From: Pirellulales bacterium
GTDB lineage: Bacteria > Planctomycetota > Planctomycetia > Pirellulales > JADZDJ01
DNA: 43,288 nucleotides
Direction: 5' to 3'
Assembly: GCA_035656635.1 (NCBI GenBank)
Contig: DASRSD010000125.1
Coordinates: 1-43,288, forward strand
The notes under the pieces were generated by a model that saw only the letters and a list, made by a program, of their open reading frames with translations, was not told the DNA's origin and did not search any database. The position numbers and the translations under genes are program-made. Position 1 is the stretch's first letter. Each line of letters begins with the position of its first letter. Of this stretch, positions 14,582 to 20,576 are shown in pieces.

Positions 14582-14801
14582 GTCGGCAGGGTAGTTGCTG
14601 GTGAAAAGCGATGCTGTGTTTTGCCCGCGGTTTCATTCTTCTCCCGAATTTTTATTTTCGCGTCAAAACCCCACTCTTTTGTCTGGCGCGCAATCTCGCC
14701 GTTGCGGCAAATCCGCGGGGGGTCGTCCGCTTGCCGGTGACAGAATGCGTCGAGTTTGCGTCCGAGATTGTGCATTTTCGGTAGATTGTTGGGCGAGGGA
14801 A

Positions 14802-14937
14802 GTGACTAGGGGCTAGTGGTTAGGGGCTAGTGTGTGAACAGGTGAGCGGGTGAGGAAGTGCATTGCACAACTTCAGCCACAAGCCCTCGGCTCTGGTTCC
14901 TCAGCTCTAGCCACTAATCCCTAGCCACTAGCCACTG
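14802..14937. repeat. Inverted 7-nt-period arrays (TAGTGGC type) forming a long hairpin
   Basis: The left arm (14802-14832) is built of units like TAGGGGC, TAGTGGT and TAGGGGC. The right arm (14905-14937) is the complementary type CTAGCCA, CTAATCC, CTAGCCA and CTAGCCA. Between them lie a second heptameric stretch (GGTGAGC, GGGTGAG) and the small palindrome GTGCATTGCAC. The element could fold into a hairpin of about 135 nt. Confidence 0.75.
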
Positions 14938-15089
14938 TCCTATGCCCGCGCATTTTACCAAACGAGTGGCCCAATTTTAGGAAGATTTTTTGCAGCGCCA
15001 CTAAAGCCGCAGTTTTTATAAGGAAGCCAGGAAAGCAGGAATATTCTTTTCGCCCCCGGCTTCGCCGGGGGACGCACAATTTTGCACAT

Positions 15090-15112
15090 AGCCCGACTGT
15101 GTCAGTCGGGCT
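15090..15112. repeat. CCCGACTG hairpin repeat, copy 1
   Basis: AGCCCGACTG and its exact complement are separated by a 3-nt loop (TGT). The reverse complement recurs at 33433-33453 with 21 identical bases, and a degenerate copy is at 17431-17453. Confidence 0.7.
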
Positions 15113-15120
15113 GAGGTTGC

Positions 15121-15148
15121 CTGGGGTCGAGTGCCGCCGAGCCCCCAG
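15121..15148. repeat. REP-like GC-rich imperfect palindrome, copy 1
   Basis: A 28-nt unit beginning CTGGGGTCGAG and ending GAGCCCCCAG. An identical 28-nt copy is at 17564-17591 and related copies are at 17603-17636 and 19331-19362. Confidence 0.7.
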
Positions 15149-15153
15149 CATGG

Positions 15154-15188
15154 CCAATGACGAATGACCAAGCACCACTGTCCAATTA
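15154..15188. repeat. 7-nt-period repeat (CGAATGA type)
   Basis: Units CCAATGA, CGAATGA, CCAAGCA, CCACTGT and CCAATTA run head to tail. The complementary strand shares TCATTCGTCATTG with the array at 21505-21528. Confidence 0.65.
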
Positions 15189-15235
15189 AACCATGCCCGG
15201 CTTTATGTCGCGGAAGCGAGGCACCCTCACCCCGG

Positions 15236-15351
15236 CCCTCTCCCATCAAGGGAGAGGGAGAAAATGATCGGGCACTTTGCCAAATGATCCCGGCACTTTG
15301 CCAAAGGGAGAGGGAGAAAATGATGCGATTCGCTCTCAAAGGGAGAGGGAG
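15236..15351. repeat. GGGAGAGGGAG repeat cluster
   Basis: CCCTCTCCC (15236-15244) and GGGAGAGGG (15250-15258) form a perfect 9-bp hairpin. GGGAGAGGGAGAAAATGAT occurs at 15250-15268 and again at 15306-15324, and a third GGGAGAGGGAG is near 15341-15351. GGCACTTTGCCAAA is duplicated at 15271-15284 and 15292-15305. A related hairpin sits at 17690-17714. Confidence 0.7.
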
Positions 15352-15363
15352 TAGCAGCCGGCC

Positions 15364-16872
15364 TCACACCTTAATTTCGTAGCCTTTGCGTTGCTCGCGG
15401 GCGAGCCAGTTATTGGCGTCGGTGTCGCCGACGATTTCTTCCTTGTCCGGATCCCACTTGAGGGTGCGGTTCAAGCGGAGCGAAATGTTGGCGAGATGAC
15501 AGGTGCTGATGGCCCGATGATGGGTGAACACGTCGGAAATGGGAAGCGAGCGATCGCGCACGCACTCGATAAAGTTGGCCATGTGCGTGCCCCCTTCGGT
15601 GCCGTGCTCGGGCAGCTTTTTGCCTTTGCAGAGCTTGATGAGCACGTCTTGGGGAATGGGGTTATCGGCCAGGCCGGCCACGGCATCGCCGGAAATATCT
15701 TTCAGCGTATCGCGGGAAACTTTGATTTGCCCCTTGTCTCCTTCGATCCAAATACTGTCTTCGCTGCCGCTGGAAATGGTCAGCTCCGTGCCGTTGGGGA
15801 ATTTGCAAACCACGTTGAACTTGCGGGGGCAATTGTACTGATCGTGAACGGTGGCAAAGCCGTTTTCGTAGGGGACGGGCATTTCGCCGGTCGATTCAAT
15901 GCTGGTCGGCCCACTGTGGTCCATTTGCAGAGCCCATTGAGCAATGTCGACGTGGTGGGCGCCCCAATCGGTCAGCTTGCCGCCGGAGTATTCGTACCAC
16001 CAGCGGAACTCGTAATGGGTGCGGCCGGCCGGAAAGCTGCGGTTAGACGATTGCCCTTTGGTGCCTTGCACGAAATCGAACACAGGCGCCTGGCCCTGCC
16101 ACAACTCCCAATTGAGCTCCGCCGGCACGTCGACCTTGGGCAGGGCAGGGCAAACCGGATTGGCGCGAATCACAATTTTTGCGCGCTGCACGTTGCCCAG
16201 GCGGCCGGAATGGGCCATGGCCACGGCCTGCAAAAATTGCCGATCGAACAACAGCTTGGTGGGAGCGGCGTTTTTGGCGTCTTTTGAATCTTTCGCGTCC
16301 TTTTGATCCTTGGCGTCTTTGCTTTCTTTGCCGGCGTTGTCGTCCAGAATGCGCTGGCGGACTTGGAATTCGTCGCGCTGCTGGGTGCCCACTTGCACGA
16401 CGCGGCCGGTTTGCTTTTGCACCTGGCAGATTTTTTTCCCCTCATCGATGGTCAACGTCATCGGCTTTTCGCAGTAAACGTCTTTGCCCGCCTGCATGGC
16501 TTCGATCAGAATTTTGCTGTGCCAGTGGTCGGGCGTGACGACGGTGACAATGTCGATATCTTTGCGATCCAAAATGCGGCGATAATCTTCAAAGGCCTCG
16601 GCTTTATCGCCCGCCACTTTCAGGCCGTTCTTTTCCAAGTGGTTTTTATCGACATCGCACACGGCCACAATGTCGCCGAATTTTTTCACTTGCGGGCCAA
16701 TGGCGCCGTGCCAACGATCGCCGGTGCCAATGCAGCCGATCGTGTGGCGATCGCTTTTGGAACTATCTTGGGCGCCGGCTCGGCTGGTGAACCAGTACGG
16801 AGTTAAGGTGGCCGCGCCGGCGGCGGCAGCGGTTTGCAAAAACTGGCGGCGATTTGGTCCGCGGTGCAACAT
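15364..16872 (-). CDS. Gfo/Idh/MocA family oxidoreductase, Tat-exported
   Basis: A 502-residue NAD(P)-dependent oxidoreductase of the planctomycete exported type. I start it at ATG 16872, with GAGG about 9 nt upstream. This gives the twin-arginine signal PNRRQFLQTAAAAGAATL. The Rossmann fold follows with the dinucleotide motif IGCIGTGDRW, then the conserved CEKPMTLTIDEGKK segment. The C-terminal alpha/beta domain includes FRWWYEYSGGKLTDWGAHHVDI, whose His residues are typical of the active site (named here as a region). Between QQRDEFQVRQRIL and the next conserved block FLQAVAMAHSGRLG there is a Lys/Asp-rich insert (about residues 178-205) encoded by a tandem repeat. The substrate is unknown; sugars or polyols are usual. 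A promoter at 17308-17336 could drive it through a long leader. Confidence 0.93.
   Translation of the reverse strand: MLHRGPNRRQFLQTAAAAGAATLTPYWFTSRAGAQDSSKSDRHTIGCIGTGDRWHGAIGPQVKKFGDIVAVCDVDKNHLEKNGLKVAGDKAEAFEDYRRILDRKDIDIVTVVTPDHWHSKILIEAMQAGKDVYCEKPMTLTIDEGKKICQVQKQTGRVVQVGTQQRDEFQVRQRILDDNAGKESKDAKDQKDAKDSKDAKNAAPTKLLFDRQFLQAVAMAHSGRLGNVQRAKIVIRANPVCPALPKVDVPAELNWELWQGQAPVFDFVQGTKGQSSNRSFPAGRTHYEFRWWYEYSGGKLTDWGAHHVDIAQWALQMDHSGPTSIESTGEMPVPYENGFATVHDQYNCPRKFNVVCKFPNGTELTISSGSEDSIWIEGDKGQIKVSRDTLKDISGDAVAGLADNPIPQDVLIKLCKGKKLPEHGTEGGTHMANFIECVRDRSLPISDVFTHHRAISTCHLANISLRLNRTLKWDPDKEEIVGDTDANNWLAREQRKGYEIKV
16258..16334. repeat. In-frame KDAKD-coding tandem repeat in the oxidoreductase gene
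   Basis: Degenerate units encode SKDAKDQKDAKDSKDAKN. The period is 9 to 12 nt and not 7, so it differs from the heptamer arrays. It adds about 25-30 residues between two conserved blocks without breaking the frame. Confidence 0.6.
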
Positions 16873-17307
16873 GGAAGTACCTCGTGAAGGCCAGGGGTTG
16901 GTTTGGAGAGGCCCCAAGCCAGAAGGCGCGGCGCAAAGAGAGCGCCTGCTGTCGACGGCTTAGCACCAATCCCCCCGAGACGACAAATGTTTGCGTCTCC
17001 TTGCCCACTACTGTAACTTCTGGCCGCGGCGGATGCAAAGAGGGTGCGCCAGCGCCGCCAAGTAGAAATTACGCTGCGGCAGACAGCGATGTGGCACACG
17101 AACGAGCCACGTCATGCGGCGTGATTGAATCGCTTGCCCGCCAAAGGGAGGCATCGTAGGTTACTCGCCGTACAGCGGTGTGTGGAACAGGAGGGCAGTG
17201 CCTAACTCGCCGAGGGCCAGGAATCTGAGCTGTGAGCAACCGCCCCCCTGATCGACAAACCGCTGAGTGAGAGAGTGAAGTTCCGGAAGCGAAAGCGGAT
17301 TAATACT

Positions 17308-17336
17308 TGTATATGCACTGTAATTCAGCTTGTCAA
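17308..17336 (-). promoter_or_regulatory. Sigma-70-type promoter reading leftward
   Basis: On the minus strand, TTGACA (17336-17331) and TATACA (17313-17308) are separated by 17 nt. Transcription would start near 17300 and reach the oxidoreductase gene after a leader of about 430 nt. Confidence 0.6.
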
Positions 17337-17430
17337 GCATTGGCCGCCTTTTCCACAAAATAATTTCTGTGCCGCAGTAATTAGAAATCCGTCTCTCGGC
17401 CAATGAATTCGGGAACGAGAAAACGAACAT

Positions 17431-17453
17431 AGCTCGGCTGTGCCAGTCGGGTG
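17431..17453. repeat. CCCGACTG hairpin repeat, degenerate copy 2
   Basis: AGCTCGGCTGTGCCAGTCGG matches the repeat at 15090-15112 with a few substitutions and keeps the same order of arms. Confidence 0.5.
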
Positions 17454-17528
17454 CCGAAGTCTTCGGCGGCTTGAAGGTTCGGCGGCAAAAAATCAGCCGG
17501 CATCAAAATCGAACGAGGGATGCTTTAG

Positions 17529-17659
17529 AGGCTGTTTCAAAACTGGGCTTCCATAAAGGGTGGCTGGGGTCGAGTGCCGCCGAGCCCCCAGTAAATGGGC
17601 TGCTGGGGGCTCCCTTCGGTCGACCCCCGGCCACCCGATTCTCAGTTTTGAAACAGCCT
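17529..17659. mobile_element. 131-bp MITE-like element with 17-bp perfect terminal inverted repeats
   Basis: The left end AGGCTGTTTCAAAACTG (17529-17545) and the right end (17643-17659) are perfect inverted repeats. TTTAG directly flanks both sides (17524-17528 and 17660-17664), as a 5-bp target duplication would. The inside holds two inverted copies of the REP-like GC-rich unit (17558-17591 and 17603-17636). No transposase is encoded, so the element would need one supplied in trans. Alternatively it is a large hairpin of other function. Confidence 0.7.
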
Positions 17660-17689
17660 TTTAGAAAAATCGGCAGACACTCTCGCCCC

Positions 17690-17714
17690 GGCCTTCTCCC
17701 GGAGGGAGAGGGAG
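17690..17714. repeat. GGGAGAGGG hairpin repeat after the sigma factor gene
   Basis: CCTTCTCCC and GGGAGAGGG flank a 3-nt loop just beyond the 3' end of the leftward sigma factor gene. It belongs to the family at 15236-15351 and may double as a transcription end signal. Confidence 0.5.
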
Positions 17715-17725
17715 CAGTATGGCAA

Positions 17726-18307
17726 TTATTCCGCGGCGATGCCGCTGGCCCGGCGCATTTTTTCGCGGGCCCGAGAGAGCGTGGGCCCAATGCTGTTTTC
17801 CGGCATGCCCACCGCCGAGCTGATTTCCTGATAGCTTTTGCCTTCCAAGTGATACATGCGCACTACTTGGGCTTCGGTCCCTTCCAGCTCTTCGAGCAGA
17901 CGAGCCACTTCATCGCGATCGCTCACCGGTTGCCCCGGTGCAGCGCCGTTGGCCGGTTGTGATTGCACGGCCTGACGTGCGACCCCATCCCCAGTGTGCA
18001 CGTTGCGGTTGTGAAGGAGCCGGTTAATGACTACGCGGCGGGTGATGACCGTCAGATACGTTGCCAAGCTCGATTCGGCACGGAAGCGGCGCAGCACGGC
18101 GAAATCGCCTTTGACAATCATCAAGAATACTTCGCCGACCAAATCTTCGCGGTCGTGTGGAGCGATGCGCAGGCCGCGGCTTTGGGTTGAATGATCGATC
18201 ACATGCAGCACCAGGCCCATGTAACGATCGACGAAATCTTCCCACGCCCGGGGCTGTCGGGAGAGACAGCGGCTCAACAAATTGCGATCGATTTCCGACA
18301 GTGCCAC
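17726..18307 (-). CDS. ECF-like RNA polymerase sigma-70 factor
   Basis: A 193-residue sigma factor with region 2 (about 10-85: FVDRYMGLVLHVID, then DREDLVGEVFLMIVKGDFAVLRRF, and SSLATYLTVITRRVVINRLL) and region 4 (about 125-185) with helix-turn-helix KSYQEISSAVGMPENSIGP. The linker of about 35 residues is polar and Ala/Gln-rich. GTG at 18307 is the start, with AAAGG some 15 nt upstream. No anti-sigma gene is adjacent, so control may be by other means, as in many planctomycete ECF groups. Its regulon is unknown. Confidence 0.9.
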   Translation of the reverse strand: MALSEIDRNLLSRCLSRQPRAWEDFVDRYMGLVLHVIDHSTQSRGLRIAPHDREDLVGEVFLMIVKGDFAVLRRFRAESSLATYLTVITRRVVINRLLHNRNVHTGDGVARQAVQSQPANGAAPGQPVSDRDEVARLLEELEGTEAQVVRMYHLEGKSYQEISSAVGMPENSIGPTLSRAREKMRRASGIAAE

Positions 18308-18649
18308 AGCAACAACAACCTTTCGCCCCCGCCAACTGCCCGATGGTTAGGACGATTCCCAGGTTTCGGCGGAGCTGGATGATTCAGCCGCGGTCGCACC
18401 GACCGCGCCGCCGACACCTCCTGTGTTTCCAGGAATCGGAAATCCTGTGCGAACTGCAAACAAAAAGTCCGGACTTGCTCGAGCGCGCAAAGGCCCTACG
18501 CTTTAGATTTTACGTACAATAAATGGCTGAGGCAAGGCGAAAGAAATTGCGGCTACCAACCCAGTTCATCAGGAATTCTTGTCCGCCGCGCCGTTAAATC
18601 TGTGGGAATCTCCGACTTACCCCGACTGTGAGATGATCACGAGGGGGCT

Positions 18650-18689
18650 CGGTCGGTGCCGTCAAGAATTGCCTGGTCGGCACCGGCCG
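18650..18689. other. Stable 12-bp hairpin of unknown role
   Basis: CGGTCGGTGCCG (18650-18661) pairs with CGGCACCGGCCG (18678-18689) with a single G-U pair and a 16-nt loop. There is no U tract, so it is not an evident terminator. It lies 90 nt upstream of the ferredoxin promoter. Confidence 0.4.
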
Positions 18690-18778
18690 AATGTCTTTCC
18701 TGATCGGCACGCTAGATAGGGCCTCGGGCACGGCGAAAAAAGGACGCAAAACTTACGGCTTTGGCACGTCCAGAGCGG

Positions 18779-18807
18779 TTGACAGTGCCCGCCAGCGTTA
18801 CTATGAT
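18779..18807 (+). promoter_or_regulatory. Promoter of the ferredoxin gene
   Basis: TTGACA (18779-18784), a 17-nt spacer and TATGAT (18802-18807). The expected leader is about 95 nt and ends with AAAGGAGTGG before the ATG at 18910. Confidence 0.65.
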
Positions 18808-18909
18808 TCGCGCAGAATCGCTGAATTACCCGCTCAAGTCTTTTCGATATAACAAGTTGTCTCTGGCAACCTGTGATGCAAAGTTTTCTGTGAAAGGAGT
18901 GGATGGTCA

Positions 18910-19194
18910 ATGACTCACGTTGTCGCCGAGCCGTGCTTCGGATGCAAGTACACCGACTGTGTCGTGGTTTGCCCGGTCGAGTGCTTTTACGAAGGGGAAA
19001 AAATTCTGTACATCCACCCGGATGAATGCATCGATTGCGAAGCCTGCGTTCCGGAGTGCCCGGTCGAGGCCATCTTTCACGAAGATAATTTGCCTGAGCA
19101 ATGGGCCGATTTCAAACAGCTCAATGCCGAAATGGCGCCGCAGTGCCCGGTGATTACGGAAAAGAAAGAGCCGCTGGCCAAGGAAAGTGAGTAG
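18910..19194 (+). CDS. fdxA: 7Fe-type (3Fe-4S/4Fe-4S) ferredoxin
   Basis: A 94-residue electron carrier closely matching the Azotobacter FdI/FdxA family: cysteines at 9, 12, 17, 21 and 25, then 40, 43, 46 and 50. The motif [18 protein letters not shown] and the segment [22 protein letters not shown] are diagnostic. The spacing at the first cluster fits a 3Fe-4S or 7Fe arrangement and the second is a classical CxxCxxCxxxCP. The C-terminal extension is acidic and Lys-rich. A strong ribosome-binding site (AAAGGAG) and promoter are present, and an intrinsic terminator follows, so it is a single-gene unit. The nearby nadA encodes another Fe-S protein, but the genes converge. Confidence 0.96.
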
Positions 19195-19270
19195 CAGCAA
19201 GCGCTGAAGGAAAGAATTGGTGCCGCGCGACATGTGCTTATCGTGCGCCTCTGTTAGTAGGATGACCGGA

Positions 19271-19299
19271 GCCGTCGAATTTTTCGATGGCTTTTTTTT
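19271..19299 (+). terminator. Intrinsic terminator of the ferredoxin gene
   Basis: GCCGTCGAA (19271-19279) and TTCGATGGC (19283-19291) form a 9-bp stem with one G-U pair and a 3-nt loop, followed by eight T residues (19292-19299). Confidence 0.88.
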
Positions 19300-19330
19300 C
19301 GCGCGAAGCTACGATTTGCTTCGCGCCATT

Positions 19331-19362
19331 CCGGGGGCTCGGCGGCCTCGACCCCGGCCACC
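19331..19362. repeat. REP-like GC-rich palindrome, related copy
   Basis: GGGGGCTCGGCGGC is followed by TCGACCCCGGCCACCC. It is the opposite orientation of the 15121-15148 unit and shares its outer arms with the right half of the 17529-17659 element. It sits between convergent fdxA and nadA. Confidence 0.6.
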
Positions 19363-19403
19363 CAAGCGCCCGGTCATCCAGGCTGCAGCGTAGTTAAAAA
19401 ATT

Positions 19404-20576
19404 TCACTTCACTGCCAGCATCCGTTCCAGCGCCACCAAAGCGTAGTGGGCGGTTTCGGGCAGCACTTCGATGATGTTCACCGGCGTGCCCGCGGCCAGG
19501 TTTTCCAAGGCCCAGCAAAGATGCGCCAGGTCGATGCGGTACATCGTGGCGCACATGCAGACCACGGGCGAAAGAAAATGAATTTCCTGTTCCGGATGCT
19601 CGTGCTTCAAGCGGTTCACTAAATGCAGCTCGGTGCCGATGGCCCACTTGGTTCCCGGCGGCGCTTCGCTCACTGTGCGAATAATTTTGCTGGTGCTGCC
19701 GCTGACATCGCTTTTATCGACCACTTCCATCGCACATTCCGGATGGACCAGAATTTTGATGCCGGGAAATTTCGCGCGAAACGCATCGACGTGCTCGGGC
19801 CGGAACATGGCGTGTACGCTGCAATGTCCCTGCCAGAGGAGCACTTTGGAATTTTCGATGGCAGCGGCCGTGTTGCCACCGAGCGACGAAGCGGCGCCCG
19901 CCATGCTGGCGTGCGGATTCCACACGGCCATTTCGGCCAGCGGAATGCCCATGGCCTTGGCAGTGTTGCGGCCCAGGTGTTGATCCGGGAAAAACAGCAC
20001 GCGCTTCGTGCGTTGGAAGGCCCAGTTTAAGACGGCGGCGGCATTGGACGACGTGCAAACAATGCCGCCATGCCGGCCGCAAAACGCTTTCAAGTTGGCG
20101 GCCGAGTTGATGTACGTGACCGGCGTGATGTCAGCCGTGTCGATGACTTCGCCCAGCTCTTCCCAGCAGCTTTCCACCTGATCGATGGCGGCCATATCGG
20201 CCATGGAGCAGCCGGCGGCCAGGTCGGGTAGCACTACGGTTACGCGCTCCCCGCCACGCTCCGCCAGTTTGTCGGGCCGGTTGGCGACGATGTCGGCGGT
20301 TTCGGCCATGAAGTGGACGCCGCAAAAAGCAATGGAGCGGCAATCGTGGCTGTCGGCCGCCATGCGGCTGAGCTGGTAGCTGTCGCCTTGTAAATCCGAC
20401 AGCGCGATCACTTCGTCCTGCTGATAGTGATGCCCTAGAATCAATAACCGCGAGCCCAACTCTGCACGCACCGTATTGATGCGGCGCGCTAGCTCCTCGT
20501 TCGACAAGCCGCGATACGGCTTGAACTCCTGAGCTGGCAATCCGGAAGGTGTAAGTTGGGCAGTGCTAGCGGGCAT
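19404..20576 (-). CDS. nadA: Quinolinate synthase A
   Basis: A 390-residue [4Fe-4S] enzyme that condenses iminoaspartate with dihydroxyacetone phosphate to quinolinate in NAD synthesis. Diagnostic segments are LILGHHYQQDEVIALSDLQG near the N-terminus, AFCGVHFMAETADI, the FFPDQHLGRN motif and HPECAMEVVDKSD. The cluster-ligating cysteines are in AFCGV, the CSVHAMFRPEH-to-HPEC region and VCMCATMYRI. The protein is a little longer than the E. coli enzyme at the N-terminus. The start is ATG 20576 with no Shine-Dalgarno site. A 7-nt-period repeat begins 13 nt upstream, inside the expected leader. No nadB or nadC is in the window. Confidence 0.96.
   Translation of the reverse strand: MPASTAQLTPSGLPAQEFKPYRGLSNEELARRINTVRAELGSRLLILGHHYQQDEVIALSDLQGDSYQLSRMAADSHDCRSIAFCGVHFMAETADIVANRPDKLAERGGERVTVVLPDLAAGCSMADMAAIDQVESCWEELGEVIDTADITPVTYINSAANLKAFCGRHGGIVCTSSNAAAVLNWAFQRTKRVLFFPDQHLGRNTAKAMGIPLAEMAVWNPHASMAGAASSLGGNTAAAIENSKVLLWQGHCSVHAMFRPEHVDAFRAKFPGIKILVHPECAMEVVDKSDVSGSTSKIIRTVSEAPPGTKWAIGTELHLVNRLKHEHPEQEIHFLSPVVCMCATMYRIDLAHLCWALENLAAGTPVNIIEVLPETAHYALVALERMLAVK

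Follow-up and report, generated by a model that had tools for sequence, protein, structure and literature searches.

A TNA-type 3-bp target duplication is a feature of an IS5-family group of insertion sequences (IS). REPINs are made of two inverted palindromic units, form a long hairpin and occur in many copies, and RAYT is a tyrosine transposase. To our knowledge, the origin of MITEs whose interior is something other than a deleted transposon is an open matter. The literature on Coxiella burnetii describes QMITE2, a 150–190-bp MITE that contains a GTAG REP, has terminal repeats and variable 7–11-nt duplications, and includes short versions that resemble bare REPs (PMC5896051); this REP-holding MITE is also described as a target for IS1111 (PMC5896051; PMC10969869). 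A further source reports the occurrence of GTAG/CGTC-tagged palindromic repeats in Planctomycetes too (PMC3733652).

Here we describe a 131-bp element in a 43,288-nucleotide stretch of DNA from a Pirellulales bacterium (the window, which is contig C125 of a genome of 4.9 Mb in 190 contigs, 95.6% complete) that resembles each of these systems in part. With IS5-family IS and MITEs it has in common 15-bp terminal repeats that also bound IS5-type elements, TNA-type flanks and, in the transposase-bearing relatives, DDE_Tnp_1 and in one case PF13340, whereas inside it lies a REP-like doublet that recurs at other places in the genome and that was not recognised by eye as a deletion remnant of those elements. 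Like QMITE2, the element is a MITE with terminal repeats and a REP inside, but there one MITE family holds the REP, while here one core lies between unrelated ends with different duplication lengths. The core shares with REPINs its two inverted palindromic units, long hairpin and many copies; however, an adjacent cognate tyrosine transposase was not found, and the best-resolved core copies move as MITE inserts. It is also of the same general kind as the GTAG/CGTC-tagged repeats, although such a tag was not recognised at the unit borders. Among open-access titles and abstract openings retrieved with narrow terms, none described a single core shared by MITEs that differ in their ends.

A sequence-only reading of the window had proposed a MITE with 17-bp perfect inverted ends, and the arms are indeed 17 nt each, 100% complementary and 97 nt apart (Table 1). 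The 131-nt strand is predicted to fold as a single long hairpin at −89.9 kcal/mol, where shuffles average −49.9 (z −10.2), and the opposite strand folds with z −8.4. The interior, described in that reading as an inverted pair of REP-like units, is one 79-bp doublet whose borders recur elsewhere in the genome, and the two single REP-like units noted outside the element are both there. The absence of a gene was likewise borne out, with two listed open frames running through the element (163 and 95 aa) and no Pfam family in either at 0.01. A further repeat, of the kind GTCATTGGTGCTTGGTCATT, stands next to single REP-like units at window positions 15149–15179 and at loci L304, L310, L314, L318 and L323.

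Table 1. Features of the 131-bp element and its surroundings in the window.
Feature	Position	Strand	Basis
Left target-duplication copy TTA, inside TTTAG 17524–17528	17525–17527	.	Sequence and 12-site flank comparison
Left terminal inverted repeat AGGCTGTTTCAAAACTG	17529–17545	+	Complementarity, genome-wide recurrence
Left spacer, terminal repeat to core	17546–17557	+	Sequence, copy comparison
Core, two inverted REP-like units, GGGTGGC...GCCACCC, long hairpin	17558–17636	+	Recurring borders, fold
Right spacer	17637–17642	+	Sequence, copy comparison
Right terminal inverted repeat	17643–17659	-	Complementarity, genome-wide recurrence
Right target-duplication copy TTA, inside TTTAG 17660–17664	17661–17663	.	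Sequence and flank comparison
Single REP-like unit, terminal repeats none seen; exact GCCGAGCCCCCAG at 15136–15148	15121–15148	+	
Single REP-like unit, terminal repeats none seen; GGTGGCCGGGGTCG at 19349–19362, minus strand	19331–19362	-	
Neighbour gene, ECF-type sigma factor; 3' end 66 bp from element	17726–18307	-	
Neighbour gene, Gfo/Idh/MocA oxidoreductase with Tat signal; element ~600 bp upstream	15364–16917	-	

The 131-bp element is a recently active, gene-less MITE present at at least a dozen genomic places. A whole-genome search for the 17-bp end, as the sequence-only reading had suggested, returned 14 matches per strand at up to 2 mismatches, where the reversed control gave one per strand, so that chance is not the explanation. 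Of the 28 matches, 26 fall on element copies and the other two, on C127 and C186, are lone ends. This makes 14 copies with at least one end; a gapped pattern search of the same genome found 12 with both, and the MITE assignment stands on the terminal repeats, these 12 two-ended copies and a T(A/T)A duplication. The core is present in all 12, their flanks differ from one another, and an end pair of this kind without the core was not seen in the genome. Eleven of the two-ended copies are sisters (type A), seven of them identical to the letter, from which the window copy differs by 8 substitutions and one inserted base; together with two partial copies at contig ends (C97 and C102) it makes up type B. 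In a DNA search of the genome, in which the best 40 of 81 candidates were scored, 15 places match beyond the core and 25 match essentially the core alone. For 10 of the 12 two-ended copies, frames read through the joined site are 41 to 236 aa long, which is not decisive. The copies on C146, C110, C97, C165 and C55 are inserted into or next to another intergenic repeat, built of simple words (GGCTTCCTTATAAA, CTCTGTGCCTCCGTG and the like), in which TTATAA may be a preferred target.

The window copy is flanked left and right by TTTAG as first read, but what the copies have in common is a 3-bp duplication, T(A/T)A. Beyond one intervening base at each end, the next three bases read T(A/T)A on the left at 11 of 12 sites and on the right at all 12, and they are equal at 9 of 12 (the unequal flanks being GAA/TAA, TAA/TTA and TAA/TTA); by chance T(A/T)A starts at 97 of 5760 positions (1.7%), counted in the flanks of 10 of the 12 sites. 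The intervening base is G on the left at 12/12 sites and on the right at 10/12 (the exceptions are an A in C6 and a T in the window copy). The element itself is therefore probably 132–133 bp long with a 3-bp duplication, and G17528, the base just before the left repeat in the window, probably belongs to it. The window TTTAG is the 3-bp duplication plus neighbouring bases, so that the 5-bp duplication first described was overstated. On C58 and C116, the left flank within the contig consists of four bases only, TAAG.

The search for a full transposase-bearing element with the same ends succeeded in other genomes of the phylum, where the shared end is 15 bp long. This exact 15-bp end is present in 11 of 294 phylum genomes, and inverted pairs of it occur, besides our genome, only in G520 (six pairs, elements of 892–902 bp) and G033 (one pair, 874 bp). 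Two further genomes (G062 and G070) have single ends followed by sequence resembling the G033 element, and the remaining six were set aside as unrelated by eye. Frames of two G520 elements and the G033 element were scanned, and DDE_Tnp_1 exceeded its cut-off in all three, as did PF13340 (IS4/5 N-terminal domain) in the G033 element. The NCBIfam IS5 model was the best match, with 97 bits for one G520 element and 106 bits for the G033 element, both just under the 110-bit cut-off; against the IS1182 model the G520 frame scored 19 bits (cut-off 270). All six G520 elements have flanks of TNA form on both sides, equal in four, and the unequal flanks (TTA/TAA and TAA/TTA) are on copies in opposite orientation, a pattern that may be the trace of an inversion between two copies. 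The flanks of the G033 element, CTA/TAA, do not fit TNA.

Both the T(A/T)A of the MITE and the TNA flanks in G520 fit a TNA-type 3-bp duplication. Elements of another phylum genome combine these 15-bp ends with an IS5-type transposase and flanks of TNA form, so that an IS5-type transposase very probably moves the MITE in trans. A transposase-bearing element with the 17-bp ends (up to 2 mismatches) was not found in the genome itself, an absence that is weak at 95.6% completeness and 190 contigs, and among the listed reading frames beside the two lone ends no transposase was recognised by eye. Two candidates were discarded: the only PF13340 match of this genome, on C76, is a contig-edge fragment with different adjoining sequence, and an end pair 1400 bp apart at L087 had no transposase recognisable by eye in its frames. 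In other genomes of the same order, PF13340 matches number 47 (G007) and 16 (G008), a heavy IS4/5-type load.

The core, a 78/79-bp doublet, recurs in carriers with other ends. Its half GGTGGCTGGGGTCG gave 52 and 60 matches on the two strands at up to one mismatch, with 2 and 2 for the control. A core search of the genome, in which the best 40 of 77 candidate places were scored, gave at least 40 core places, of which 15 are of type A/B and 25 are others among the matches listed. When 26 core copies were viewed with their flanks, carriers with other inverted ends came to light: type C copies have the form GGTAGTGATGCATTTTG...[core]...CAAAGTGCATCACTACC and type D copies the form GGTAGTGGGCCAATTTGAT...[core]...ATCAAACTGGCCCACTACC. 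These C/D ends, of the GGTAGTG type, are found on both sides at 15 of the 25 places and on the left only, by a loose pattern, at five; of the five with neither, one (C33, type E) has another inverted pair, TCGCCTAATTTGA. A reading of the core-only matches as bare REPs was rejected, 15 of the 25 examined sitting between other inverted ends.

Outside the C/D ends, the sequence on the two sides matches at 7–8 of 8 bases in 9 of 15 copies. Among 210 cross pairs there was no such match, and the total was not reached in any of 20,000 permutations. The 8-base duplication test failed in the other six: C183b matches over 9 bases and C183a over 9 bases with a single difference, and at C67a, C188, C165b and C140 a clear duplication match outside the ends was not found. 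An additional inverted-repeat control (cross-pair 95th percentile 13) was set aside as not clean, because copies of one carrier type have common ends.

In a sample of 11 copies, core identity between type A and types C, D and E is 86–92%, and the core of the window copy is 81–90% identical to those of the same types. The A/B arms are 0.04–0.55 alike to the C/D/E arms; when one arm pair was shuffled, likeness averaged 0.34, with a 95th percentile of 0.62. Arm likeness among the other carriers is 0.55–0.66 for C with D and D with E, and 0.17–0.30 for C with E. The main hint of a common origin for the ends of types C, D and E is thus the GGTAGT start common to C and D, and E may share that origin.

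We take the C/D carrier ends to be IS1-type in look. On C135, an GGTAGTGGGTCAGTTTGA end lies beside a 296-aa frame that matches the NCBIfam IS1 model (1.3e-14, 54.6 bits, cut-off 100); this frame has no Pfam match at 1e-5, and a second end of the C135 element was not found. This 18-base sequence is also the start of a copy with the core at locus L060 in G002, which belongs to another genus of the same family, and it also occurs on C88, where the core is absent from the 5-kb stretch. The ends of this second frame are termed IS1-like here, a putative assignment. Within our genome, 20 of 20 C/D ends at 0–1 mismatch are on core-bearing copies, as found with a pattern that was built from such copies and is hence biased to them. 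At 2 mismatches there are 16 further matches, 5 on core-bearing copies and 11 not; part of the 11 is chance, because the reversed control gave 6, and one is the C135 end and another the C88 end.

To judge by this sharing of sequence, one palindromic core is shown to serve unrelated transposon frames in one genome. The suggestion that the element is a transposon-derived carrier of a REP unit is upheld by its ends, which are those of an IS5-type IS, and by the presence of the core in MITEs with IS1-like ends as well. Two copies bear on how the core and its frames were combined. In C165b a single core is joined to a left arm of type D and a right arm of type C, and the copy at G000:C55:38621-38750 is a type A copy except for an exact 15-bp inversion, bounded by short inverted repeats, within the right core half.

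The best explanation, which we regard as probable, is an IS5-ended MITE moved in trans together with an exchange of the core between IS5-type and IS1-like frames. The outer ends of the MITE would come from an IS5-type insertion sequence, and its interior would be the REP-like doublet that is common in the genome. An IS5-type transposase, either lost from the genome or missing from the assembly, would bind the AGGCTGTTTCAAAAC ends and move the 131-bp unit into T(A/T)A sites. The core would be exchanged between transposon frames by recombination or by template switching at the hairpin, and each frame would then spread it. We infer the exchange from the shared sequence and one recombinant copy, and independent insertions of the core would look similar.

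Such independent insertions would be expected if the core were itself mobile, that is, a REPIN-like doublet moved by a Y1 (RAYT) transposase and inserted separately into IS5-type and IS1-type MITEs, which then merely amplified it. Constant borders (GGGTGGC...GCCACCC) in the carriers, the many unit halves counted above, the existence of single and tandem units without recognisable carrier ends and the 13 Y1_Tnp matches in the genome all speak for this possibility. However, in the stretches taken around 12 of the 13 Y1_Tnp loci, some of them cut by contig ends, there is no unit match at 0–1 mismatch, and at four of the 12 there is a single isolated match at 2 mismatches. The remaining locus, on C116, lies near a copy of the MITE itself, the core motif occurring there at two MITE copies and in a separate doublet, so that a cognate RAYT flanked by the same units was found at 0 of 13 loci at 0–1 mismatch, bar that MITE copy. 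Inspection by eye of the borders GGGTGGC and GCCACCC revealed neither a GTAG nor a CGTC tag, and the core travels with its ends in 26 of 28 A/B end matches and in all 20 of the C/D ends obtained with the pattern described above. We consider this reading unlikely, although some mobility of the core may occur.

Retention of the core for a function, as a palindrome that folds the ends together or as a transcription block that makes intergenic insertions harmless, appears doubtful as well. The folding of the whole element into one hairpin on either strand and the presence of the core in 12 of 12 two-ended A/B copies agree with it, as do three planctomycete-labelled loci (L110, L126 and L151) at which the same end is joined to a different REP-like palindrome; yet any MITE ancestor that held the core would pass it to all copies, a terminator-like tail was not found at the element, and no Rfam family was found within 14800–19800. 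It is highly improbable that the many copies arose as an artefact of fragmentation in the metagenome assembly. Five of the 15 copy places (C58, C116 with two, C97 and C102) are at contig edges, for which reason some joins may be assembly errors, and C97 and C102 have a common 42-bp flank in conflicting contexts, but ten two-ended copies lie well within contigs with distinct flanks on both sides. Within positions 1–400 of these two contigs, C97 has the element where C102 continues as if empty. A comparison of C102, whose part of the common flank ends in CTTCCTTATAAAA, with C97 CTTCCTTAG plus element as an empty site was rejected, as a fragment of the same core stands at the start of C102, which may be misassembled; the pair reflects strain variation or misassembly.

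Exact end pairs at 115–145 bp overall were found in our genome alone among 396 genomes of the order (1/396). A whole-element search of 57 relatives gave matches in five, our genome included, and in the other four the best match is to the core and not to the ends. In G001, a relative of the same genus, the orthologous intergenic site measures 54 bp against the 373 bp of the window with the element, and the two do not align; the site is without the element, as an empty-site comparison would have it, but a clean single copy of TTTAG is not readable in this one relative, its flanks having diverged. The two outcomes that the sequence-only reading had set against itself, no other copy in the genome and an occupied site with identical flanks in all relatives, were neither of them seen.

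An exact-match search of contigs yielded at least 120 loci, six of them labelled as planctomycete (L110, L118, L126, L131, L137 and L151). At the three already named, the same 16-bp end is joined to a different REP-like palindrome, AACCCGAAGCG or AACCCGACGCG...GAGGGC; contig ends truncate L126 and L151, while L110 has no recognisable right end, and we regard this putative second pairing of the end as a lead. Similar ends are also seen outside the phylum. In Treponema MAGs (L084, L090, L119, L144, L147, L148, L182 and L183), the AGGCTGTTTCAAAACT end occurs at up to 3 mismatches in 34–75-bp palindromes, for example AGGCTGTTTCAAAACTGAAGTTTTGAAACAGCCT at L119, possibly a REP-like or MITE family of their own. 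In a Bacteroidales MAG (L083:6659-6771), perfect AGGCTGTTTCAAAACT ends of 16 bp bound a 113-bp element that has TTTA to its left and right and is probably a MITE whose ends are similar. One Acidobacteriota MAG holds two copies of a 97-bp element (L086:2505-2601 and L174:1837-1933) with similar ends, one degenerate in each, and CGAGGG flanks on both sides.

A MITE that contains a REP is already known in QMITE2, and the addition made here is one core in at least two unrelated transposon frames. We tentatively propose, as a possibility short of an even chance, a modular mode of MITE-making in which a REP-like hairpin core would act as a common chassis, unrelated IS ends (IS5-type with 3-bp and IS1-like with 8–9-bp duplications) would be fitted to it by palindrome exchange, and successive transposases would spread it; the hairpin may aid the pairing of the ends. 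A core common to unrelated frames, together with a recombinant copy in the same genome, provides a natural set in which to ask whether palindromic cores recruit ends. The arrangement suggests that REP-like repeats could spread on DDE-type transposons, beyond RAYT enzymes alone, and that an abundance of REPs need not imply RAYT-driven movement.
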